Shown piece by piece: positions 26,103-28,106 of a DNA stretch of 64,000 nucleotides. A program made the position numbers and the translations under genes. The stretch comes from Rhodanobacteraceae bacterium (GTDB taxonomy: Bacteria > Acidobacteriota > Terriglobia > Terriglobales > Acidobacteriaceae), in the NCBI GenBank assembly GCA_903970285.1, contig CAJCHN010000148.1, positions 1-64,000 of the forward strand, given 5' to 3'. Numbering within the stretch: the first letter of the stretch is position 1; each line of letters begins with the position of its first letter. The notes under the pieces are model-generated. The model ran no database searches. It was given only the letters and a program-made list of their open reading frames with translations, and was not told the DNA's origin.

Positions 26103-28106
26103 ATGTGTGGAATCGTCGGCTATATCGGCCCCAAGTCTGTCGTCCCCGTCATCATTGAAGGTCTGCGCCGCCTTGAATACCGCGGCTACGACTCCGCTGG
26201 CATCGCCGTCGGCGGCGACCCCGAACACCCCGGCCAGCTCCTGCTCCGCCGCGCCTCCGGCAAGCTCCGCAACCTCGAAGCCGTCATCGCCGCCGGGCCC
26301 ATCCACGGCACCTACGGCATCGGCCACACCCGCTGGGCCACCCACGGCCGCCCCACCGAAGAAAACGCCCACCCTCACCGCGACGGCACCGGAACCCTGG
26401 TCGTCGTGCACAACGGCATCGTCGAGAATTATCTCCAGCTCAAGCAAGCCCTCATCGCCAAGGGCCACGTCTTCCAGTCCGAAACCGACACCGAAATCAT
26501 CGCCCACCTGATTCAAGATGAGCTCGAAAAAGCCGCCGCCCAACCCCACAGTCCCGACCGAACCCTCGCCTCCAACGAATCCGAAGCCGTCCTCTCCGAC
26601 AGCATCCCCACCACGAATCCGGGTGCCCCAGGTCTCGCTTCTGAGACCTCGGTCTCCACCCTCCCGATCCCCCTCGACGAGGCAGTAAGAAGAGCCGTCA
26701 AGCGCCTCACCGGAGCCTTCGCCATCGGCGTCCTCTCCGCCCACGCGCCCGACACCCTCGTCGCCGCGCGCATGGGCCCGCCCGCCGTCCTCGGCATCGG
26801 CGACAACGAATACTTCCTCGCCTCGGACGTCCCCGGCATCCTCCACCACACCCGCAACATCCACTTCCTCGCCGACGGCGAAGTCGCCACCCTCACCAAA
26901 CAGGGCATCACCCTCACCGACTTTGACGGCGCAGAACTTCCTCTCAAGGTTCAAAGAATCGCCTGGGACCCCATCCAGGCTGAAAAAGCCGGCTACAAGC
27001 ACTTCATGCTCAAAGAAATCAACGAGCAGCCCCGCGCCGTCCGCGACACCACCCTCGGCCGCGTCTCGCTCGCCACCGGCGAAGTCTTCCTCCACGACAT
27101 GCAAATCACCGCCGCCGAGTTCCGCTCCGCGACCGGTATCACTATCGCCGCCTGCGGAACCTCGTGGCACGCCGGCCTCGCCGGCAAATTCATGATCGAG
27201 CGTCTCGCCCGCATCCCCGTCGACGTGGATTATGCCAGCGAATACCGCTACCGCGACCCCATCCCCGACGCCTCCACCCTCGGCCTCCTCATCACCCAGT
27301 CCGGCGAAACCGCCGACACCCTCGCCGCCCAGCAGGAGCTCATCCGCAAGGGCTCGAAGACCCTCGCCATCTGCAACGTCGTCGGGGCTGCTATCACGCG
27401 TGCCGCGCAGGGAACCATCACCACCAACGCCGGCCCCGAGATCGGCGTCGCCTCCACCAAGGCCTTCACCGCCCAGCTCACCGCCCTCTTCGTCTTCGCG
27501 CTCTACCTCGCCCAGCAGCGCGGGACAATCTCCAGCGACGAGTCGCTGCATCTGGTAACCGAACTCTCTCACATCCCGCAAAAGCTCGAGACCATCCTGC
27601 GCTCGGTCGACGACCAGTGCTGCCAGCTAGCCAAGTCTTTCTCCACTGCCCGCGACTTCCTCTTCCTCGGCCGCGGCATCCACTACCCCATCGCCCTCGA
27701 AGGTGCCCTCAAGCTCAAGGAGATCTCCTACATCCACGCCGAAGGCTACCCCGCCGGCGAGATGAAGCACGGCCCCAACGCCCTCATCGACGAAACCCTC
27801 CCCGTCGTCTGCATCGCCACCAAAGACCCCGCCGACCCCAGCTCCGTCCTCAAGTACGAAAAAACCCTTTCCAACATCCAGGAAGTTACCGCTCGCTCGG
27901 GCCGCGTCATCGCCATCGCCACGGAGGGCGACGATTCGATCGCACAGTTGGTCGAACACGTCATCCACATCCCCCCCGCCCCCGAACTCCTGCTCCCCAT
28001 CCTCGAAGTCGTCCCGCTCCAGCTCCTCGCCTATCACATCGCCGTCCGCCGCGGCTGCGATGTGGATCAACCGAGGAACTTGGCCAAATCCGTAACGGTG
28101 GAATAA
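26103..28106 (+). CDS. glmS: Glutamine-fructose-6-phosphate aminotransferase (isomerizing) GlmS with an extra internal segment
   Basis: Makes glucosamine-6-phosphate for peptidoglycan and LPS. The ATG at 26103 puts the catalytic Cys2 at the mature N-terminus (MCGIVGYIG); upstream starts would block it. The glutaminase domain ([25 protein letters not shown]) is followed by two SIS domains ([41 protein letters not shown]) and the C-terminal ending [12 protein letters not shown]. It has 667 residues, about 55 more than usual. The excess lies at about residues 146-193, between QDELEKAA and [20 protein letters not shown], and contains a REP-like palindrome. The flanking conserved blocks are intact, so the enzyme is probably active. 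Confidence 0.97.
26621..26652 (+). repeat. REP-like palindrome embedded in frame in glmS
   Basis: GGGTGCCCCAGGTCTCGCTT and the following CTGAGACCTCGG match the REP copies near the RAYT gene: same GGGTGCC head, arms CCCAGGTCTC (26627-26636) and GAGACCTCGG (26643-26652, one mismatch), same 6-nt loop GCTTCT. It sits in the non-conserved extra segment of glmS, coding roughly for residues 173-183, and keeps the reading frame. Confidence 0.8.

Follow-up and report, generated by a model that had tools for sequence, protein, structure and literature searches.

The best explanation of what we see in the window (i.e. the whole 64,000-nucleotide stretch of DNA that was analysed) is that a REP element, of the family that surrounds a REP-associated HUH/Y1 transposase (RAYT) gene, inserted in an expanded, disordered loop of the enzyme GlmS and became coding there, as one instance of a process that recurs across the genus. 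We consider this very probable. The gene concerned, glmS, is essential, its product acting in cell-wall synthesis. Gene, loop and palindrome are as follows.

26103..28106, plus strand: glmS, glutamine--fructose-6-phosphate transaminase, 667 aa, start MCGIVGYI (NF001484, TIGR01135)
26535..26672, plus strand: GlmS extra loop, residues 145-190, in the glutaminase domain (phmmer to 4amv, AlphaFold)
26619..26656, plus strand: REP palindrome, in frame, residues 173-185 (model R1, 55.7 bits, E 2.1e-8)

The protein scores 806.6 bits against NCBIfam NF001484 and 776.9 bits against TIGR01135, both above cut-off (418.05 for TIGR01135, an equivalog model that it matches over its full length), and its AlphaFold model superposes on E. 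coli GlmS 1jxa with a Z of 44.4 over 591 residues (rmsd 6.1). Searching the organism's own genome gave three GlmS matches and, among the two listed, only the gene at 26103-28106, on a contig of 110 kb, is full-length. Relative to E. coli GlmS 4amv, where the corresponding segment has two residues (140-141), the extra segment is 46 residues long (145-190), phmmer pairing query residue 144 with 139 and query residue 191 with 142. The original prediction, made from the sequence, had counted some 50 extra residues, which is close for the segment as a whole, but only about 13 (12-13) of them derive from the palindrome. It had also put the segment between the glutaminase domain and the first SIS domain, which has to be corrected: the glutaminase domain itself contains it, with a helix on either side (residues 130-146 and 191-199). 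In the AlphaFold model that had been called for, whose mean pLDDT is 84.2, residues 152-182 between these helices have a pLDDT below 50 (further low segments are found at 540-557 and 657-667), which is partly expected because most of the 37 aligned sequences are without the loop. The stretch preceding the palindrome resembles VHTPDRTLDVNSAEAVLADS of a relative (G020) that has no palindrome there, and the palindrome therefore entered an older, lineage-specific loop. The idea that a mobile repeat has made protein-coding sequence is thus supported, but for a part of the loop that predates it.

The palindrome itself is 38 bases long, its first base being the first of codon 173, and the reading frame stays open across it, as had been claimed. 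It consists of a head (GGGTGCCCCA, the conserved head of the family being GGGTGC), a 10-bp stem whose arms (26627-26636 and 26643-26652) have one mismatch, and a GCTTCT loop. That it is the same palindrome as the one clustered around the RAYT gene is equally borne out: head and GCTTCT loop are identical to those of the copies at 31366-31403, 31578-31615 and 32201-32238, one stem position being unpaired, and 34 bases are 91% identical to the RAYT-flanking copies, from which the variable stem pair also differs, but in a compensated manner. A 22-base core, with up to three mismatches allowed, has five matches in the window including the glmS copy, against none in 100 shuffles. In a search of the own genome (150 of 1890 candidates scored) with covariance model R1, built from 15 own-genome copies including that in glmS, there were 28 matches at E<=1, of which 20 at E<1e-3, the glmS copy having an E of 2.1e-8. 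Over the 15 copies, 96.0% of the stem cells are paired, a value as high as this being found in none of 500 shuffles, and one stem pair changes on both sides (in six cells), the number of such pairs not exceeding that in shuffles. Folded as single-stranded DNA, the glmS copy (-7.9 kcal/mol, z -1.9) is less stable than three RAYT-flanking copies (z -4.2 to -4.9) and it is therefore slightly decayed. As a short (20-40 nt) stem-loop palindrome, with many copies per genome (20 at E<1e-3 here) and associated with a RAYT (five copies around that of the window, more at related RAYTs), the element has the hallmarks of a REP. It departs from the usual description in having a conserved GGGTGC head instead of the GTAG or CGTC head of the two published superfamilies, and in not being confined to extragenic DNA, since the glmS copy and other strong copies are genic.

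The RAYT gene is found about 5 kb downstream of the palindrome, i.e. 3.6 kb downstream of the glmS gene, in the following neighbourhood.

31041..31072, plus strand: possible degenerate REP copy (repeat-family search; weak, absent from the 28 R1 matches at E<=1)
31275..31312, plus strand: REP copy, first of an inverted pair (REPIN-like), R1 56.0 bits
31366..31403, minus strand: REP copy, second of the first inverted pair, R1 59.9 bits
31487..31524, plus strand: REP copy, first of the second inverted pair, R1 59.2 bits
31578..31615, minus strand: REP copy, second of the second pair, 81 bases upstream of the RAYT start, R1 62.2 bits
31697..32197, plus strand: RAYT (REP-associated HUH/Y1 transposase), 166 aa, Y1_Tnp 27.9 bits (cut-off 23)
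32201..32238, plus strand: REP copy directly downstream of RAYT, R1 60.6 bits

Judged by its sequence, this RAYT has what defines such proteins (Y1_Tnp/HUH family, HUH motif, catalytic tyrosine) and is apparently intact, with HVH at residues 61-63 and Tyr116. It matches E. coli TnpA-REP 4er8 (phmmer E 4e-12), Tyr116 lying opposite Tyr115, which we take to be the catalytic tyrosine of 4er8, and it is the single RAYT match in its own genome at E<=0.001. Both inverted REP pairs are part of a direct duplication of 179 bases (86%), with units at 31246-31424 and 31458-31636. A comparable arrangement is seen in two relatives. REP copies sit on both sides of a RAYT relative in G042 (66% identical, with one TAG in frame), and a REP copy adjoins the 3' end of another in G061 (64%). 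The gene in G042 (L290, C13:57783-58265) is, despite its in-frame TAG, the closest relative of the window RAYT, and its genome has 75 REP matches. Across the genus, REP matches at E<=0.01 were found in 56 of 62 genomes, with at least 102 in G061, such high per-genome counts being lower bounds because 108 candidates were scored per genome. A near relative, G033, gave 23 REP matches but none to the RAYT, which shows that REPs and RAYT do not go together in every genome.

Two further observations concern the surroundings of glmS. An ATPase-like ORF (28120-29856, recognised by eye) and a 400-aa ORF (29783-30985) sit between glmS and RAYT; in the 20 glmS regions of relatives, nothing near the gene matches either of them, and the downstream segment may therefore be a recent arrival. 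RAYT-linked glmS regions (L312-L323) occur in G019, G054, G047, G034, G049, G015, G014, G041, G048, G036, G025 and G006, with RAYT matches, sometimes fragmented, 0.2-4.9 kb from glmS, and coordinates suggest the same for G038, G017 and G031. This looks like an old glmS-RAYT neighbourhood.

How would the palindrome have come to encode protein? The REP family is most likely mobilised by the RAYT 5 kb downstream, which may have moved the copy via single-stranded DNA, using HUH chemistry. Movement through single-stranded DNA has been proposed for TnpA-REP systems. The REP would have landed in a disordered loop of the glutaminase domain that had expanded before, and would have become coding sequence, adding in the glmS frame a short Pro/Gly/Ser/Thr/Glu-containing peptide that the loop can presumably hold, and we propose that purifying selection lets the insertion stay for this reason. 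Selection would keep only those insertions that fall in permissive loops with a tolerable frame, and core-enzyme loops of the genus would in this way be filled repeatedly by several palindrome families, sometimes losing native sequence. The GlmS with the palindrome peptide is presumably made and functional, and retention of the palindrome is probably neutral rather than useful.

The glmS copy is by no means alone. It had been treated as an exception, which does not stand: in the genome scan that had been suggested, six of the 20 strong own-genome copies are within genes that can be recognised, namely glmS, mfd, purL, secA and those of an ATP-dependent DNA ligase and an S9 peptidase, five flank the RAYT and nine were not assigned to a gene, and intragenic REPs have moreover been published (PMC3733652). 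The copies in the DNA ligase and S9 peptidase genes are antisense, with weak codon scores, and sit on small contigs (C15, 8.9 kb, and C19, 14.5 kb) of an assembly that is a 151-contig draft with 5.43% estimated contamination. Copies in a 243-aa ORF (C75) and a 132-aa ORF (C147), which have no family match, were excluded from the genic count, and two decayed copies are in frame in ppc, the PEP carboxylase gene (E 0.03 and 0.76). When compared with solved structures, the purL segment is an addition relative to PurL 3viu, while the alignment is poor around the secA segment and does not extend as far as the mfd segment.

In 40 stretches of G061 and G042, with 68 matches between them (67 analysed, one opposite-strand duplicate being omitted), 12 of the 67 copies were read in frame within long ORFs, which is not an unbiased rate because the stretches were those with the highest scores. 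Nine of these genic copies passed the codon-score test, and three that missed it were admitted as lying in a long ORF in the same frame. The genes concerned encode RNB exoribonuclease (twice), Lhr helicase (twice), UvrA (twice), an RsmE-type methyltransferase and a photolyase-related protein in G061, and PEP carboxylase and UbiD in G042, the 12 also including a beta-lactamase/NamZ-containing ORF and one ORF (L269:3-1037) without Pfam match. The former (L269 of G061, 4497-9110) is a 1538-aa ORF with sodium:solute symporter, beta-lactamase-type and NamZ domains, in which the REP (7695-7732) occupies the linker before NamZ, and it could be a gene fusion bridged by the REP.

The frame in which these copies are read is strongly biased. 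The palindrome consensus has no stop in five of the six frames, and 16 of the 18 in-gene copies scored (six strong own copies and the 12 from G061/G042) use one sense frame, PGAPxLxSETW, the other two being antisense. Under equal use of five frames, 16 or more out of 18 would have a P of about 7e-10, for copies that are not a random sample, and when three below-threshold copies are left out the count is 13 of 15. This bias may stem from the peptide, from the strand of insertion or from both.

Comparison of GlmS across relatives, another of the checks that had been proposed, places the insertion in a loop that varies much within the genus. All 62 genomes of the genus set have a GlmS match, and the glmS locus was taken from 55 (for the other seven, the matches listed were limited to paralogues or a short piece of the C-terminus), and 54 of these allowed the loop to be measured. 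It has 13 residues in 15 of the 54 and 26-84 in the other 39, compared with 9-17 in 66 GlmS from outside the genus. The named GTDB loci numbered 80, of which 70 gave a readable protein and 68 a loop length, and two long loops among them (L170 and L171, 31 and 65 residues) are identical to those of genus members. Within this sample, loop expansion would thus be confined to the genus, and the same segment in a distant GlmS, which had been named as the observation that would count against the prediction, was not seen among the 66. In the 55 genus loci, the palindrome model has three strong matches inside glmS (the window, G061 and G029) and two weak ones. The palindrome of G061 is in the same loop as that of the window, while that of G029 is in a second variable loop, between the SIS domains. 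The two weak matches, variants in which head and tail are unchanged, are in the second loop of G057 (E 0.04) and the first loop of G030 (E 0.08). The window genome (G000) and G061 group together in a GlmS tree built without loop 1 (97/72), with G033, which lacks the palindrome, adjoining. The palindrome comes after NESEAVL in the window genome and before NESQAVL in its sister, and these different positions point to two insertions. An exact empty site for the insertion was not found among the matches, the best of which are 87-88% identical, in a loop that drifts fast. Finding three strong copies in 55 GlmS reading frames, where random placement predicts 0.45 (P 0.011, a post hoc figure that ignores kinship), represents a modest enrichment.

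The second hypervariable loop, near window residue 500 (window position 27600), is present in many relatives and has well over 100 extra residues in G057. Translated repeats are found there too, namely the present REP in G029 and others in G036/G038 and G011/G012/G014. In G057 (L085, 2661-2722), the REP head and tail surround another repeat-like stretch, in frame, which is possibly one element inserted into another.

Other repeats have used the GlmS loops. A second family, GTCATYCTGAGCGSAGCGMR (GTCATYCTGAGCG), is multi-copy, with 2207 matches in 58 of 62 genomes and none in the control, and it is present on the coding strand in GlmS loops of G006, G027, G028, G038 and G049 (G027 and G028 may share one insertion), that is in five of 55 reading frames against 0.89 expected (P 0.002, again post hoc and with kinship ignored). 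The GTCATTTCGACCGGAGGCGCA family is found in GlmS loops of G048, G011, G012, G014 and G032; it was rejected as an abundant repeat, being low-copy only (up to eight per genome, in 26 of 62 genomes, with one control match). Similarly rejected as a translated repeat was HAEGSAPVR, found in the GlmS loops of G013, G015, G032 and G047, which is single-copy: allowing up to three mismatches, its DNA occurs once in each of these four, at glmS, and once elsewhere in the 62 genomes (G059, three mismatches). This segment is common, nearly base for base, to the GlmS of distant genus members, and recombination between glmS genes is one possible way in which it might have come to be shared.

Similar refilling is suggested for other enzymes by loops compared in seven relatives, which could be read between anchors in five of the seven for purL, four for ppc loop 1, five for ppc loop 2 and none for secA. 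The mfd loop of G004 has another, related palindrome (GAPSSTASSSRVGS), with which it is longer than that of G005 by a net 39 bases (13 codons) between matching flanks, and the PEP carboxylase loops of G005 and G020 have GAPSFAASSQRVGS and VILSEAEGSASA, respectively. PEP carboxylase loop 2 has 51 residues between anchors in the window genome compared with 28-30 in G020, G030, G035 and G061. The two remaining comparisons go the other way. With the palindrome included, the mfd loop (L108) has 51 residues between anchors, compared with 56-58 in six relatives, and the purL loop (L109) has 38, compared with 45-72 in the five relatives read, so these loops are shorter than those of relatives that have no copy of this palindrome there, and what happened was apparently replacement rather than simple insertion. 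Native loop sequence would apparently have been lost, either through a deletion that accompanied the insertion or because one sequence was substituted for the other. Taken on sequence comparison, the GlmS, Mfd and PEP carboxylase loops appear to be used repeatedly by different palindrome families across the genus.

Could the GlmS segment merely look like a REP? The stem mismatch and a fold weaker than that of other copies would fit a chance resemblance, but we give it a negligible probability in view of the genome-wide E of 2e-8 (for a copy that was, admittedly, in the training set of the model), the absence of matches in 100 shuffles, the 91% identity over 34 bases to RAYT-flanking copies and the recurrence of the same peptide frame in several unrelated genes. 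A much more serious contender, which we find fairly probable, is that REPs insert at random and are seen only where they survive, in dispensable loops and in a harmless frame, GlmS being no target and simply having two permissive loops. It differs from the explanation that we prefer only in denying targeting, and much is in line with it: genic copies are in many unrelated genes, the insert in GlmS occupies a loop for which the model shows disorder, that in purL is an addition relative to 3viu, one frame is dominant and the enrichment in GlmS is modest. However, the filling of GlmS, Mfd and PEP carboxylase loops by different families leaves room for some targeting, and the presence of a RAYT-like gene downstream of glmS in many genomes leaves room for a local supply.

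This last point can be taken further, by supposing that glmS is often struck because a RAYT has long been its neighbour and copies land near their source. It is true that 12 of the 20 regions examined have a same-strand RAYT match less than 5 kb downstream of glmS (231 and 286 bases away in G019 and G054, the distance in the window being 3.6 kb), but those 12 regions were picked for known linkage and the other eight, chosen as best GlmS matches, are without RAYT. Furthermore, G061 and G030 have GlmS palindromes without a linked RAYT, the mfd, purL and secA copies are on other contigs where no RAYT match was found, and the RAYT tree groups the window RAYT with unlinked ones (85/90, weak). With a panel partly chosen for linkage and a window RAYT that is, on this weak support, not among the linked ones, we rejected proximity as the main cause, and regard it as improbable. 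More improbable still is that the peptide is retained because it tunes GlmS (stability, regulation or partner binding). In favour of this, 39 of 54 genus members have long loops and the copies show a strong preference for one frame, but 15 of 54 genus members retain a 13-residue loop, loop sequence and length vary between sister species, and the segment is modelled as disordered. Insertion of a RAYT-family REP in a permissive GlmS loop, within a recurrent process, remains our preferred reading.

Intragenic REPs and Rickettsia palindromic elements (RPEs) have both been published, and the kind of event is therefore already known. In the available text of PMC3733652, REPs with GTAG or CGTC heads are described in ORFs of several species, often in genes for DNA repair (DNA ligase, a photoreactivating enzyme and uvrA, the last with two insertions), linkers or loops are proposed as sites tolerating them, and different REPs are reported at about the same recB site in two Xanthomonas. 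Likewise, uvrA (twice), DNA ligase and a photolyase-related gene have been struck in the present genus. Unlike the REPs in that text, the present element has a GGGTGC head and an Edaphobacter-like acidobacterium as host, the same GlmS, Mfd and PEP carboxylase loops are filled across species and by different families, and one frame dominates. RPEs, as presented in the available part of PMC10969869, form several families found in frame in many unrelated, apparently functional genes of obligate intracellular bacteria, measured about 150 bp in the first report (Ogata), and similar events are deemed conceivable elsewhere. The glmS palindrome may work in the same way, the likeness proposed being one of mode (palindrome families in frame in unrelated genes), whereas it is 38 bp long, RAYT-linked and from a soil-type bacterium. 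According to the available text of PMC3733652, CGTC repeats, to which the intragenic RPE-4 and RPE-6 correspond, are apparently without dedicated transposase.

With inverted REP pairs around an HUH/Y1 transposase, the system resembles the REP/REPIN-RAYT of Pseudomonas and enterobacteria, as far as these are described in the available parts of PMC2817692 and PMC3116915, but the head is different and six of 20 strong copies are in recognisable genes, while REPs are said, in the available text of PMC12306157, to seldom overlap protein-coding regions. The window RAYT may belong to the acidobacterial TIRYTs (those of T. saanensis, K. versatilis, A. capsulatum and G. mallensis), which the available text of PMC3733652 presents as a sharply defined group with its own inverted repeats. 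The TIRYT motif given there, GGGGWSAS, is absent by eye from the palindrome consensus, in a comparison by motif alone. Among the listed titles and abstract openings of open-licence papers (supplements and subscription papers being outside this scope), none was found to report palindromes in acidobacterial genes. As far as the open-licence literature shows, the novelty therefore lies in (i) the GGGTGC head, (ii) the host group and (iii) the repeated filling of GlmS, Mfd and PEP carboxylase loops.

A bolder view, which we hold to be doubtful, is that the palindromes of the genus are a standing source of protein sequence from which certain loops of core enzymes (loops 1 and 2 of GlmS, one of Mfd and those of PEP carboxylase) are repeatedly refilled or replaced by several families, the element itself being shaped to the frame GAPxLxSETW. 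If its frame were indeed shaped by selection on genic copies, landing in genes would be part of how the element persists. There is also a practical warning, i.e. that REPs in Acidobacteriota are not reliably extragenic and that pipelines for annotation or masking may remove genuine protein sequence. In conclusion, since the same loop is struck by different repeats in relatives, mobile DNA appears to build protein loops, and the genus offers a natural series in which essential enzymes of free-living bacteria have taken up insertions in frame, the versions of one loop being empty, filled, decayed or replaced. With such comparable loops, the conversion of mobile DNA to protein can be measured, as can the tolerance of individual core-enzyme loops for it.
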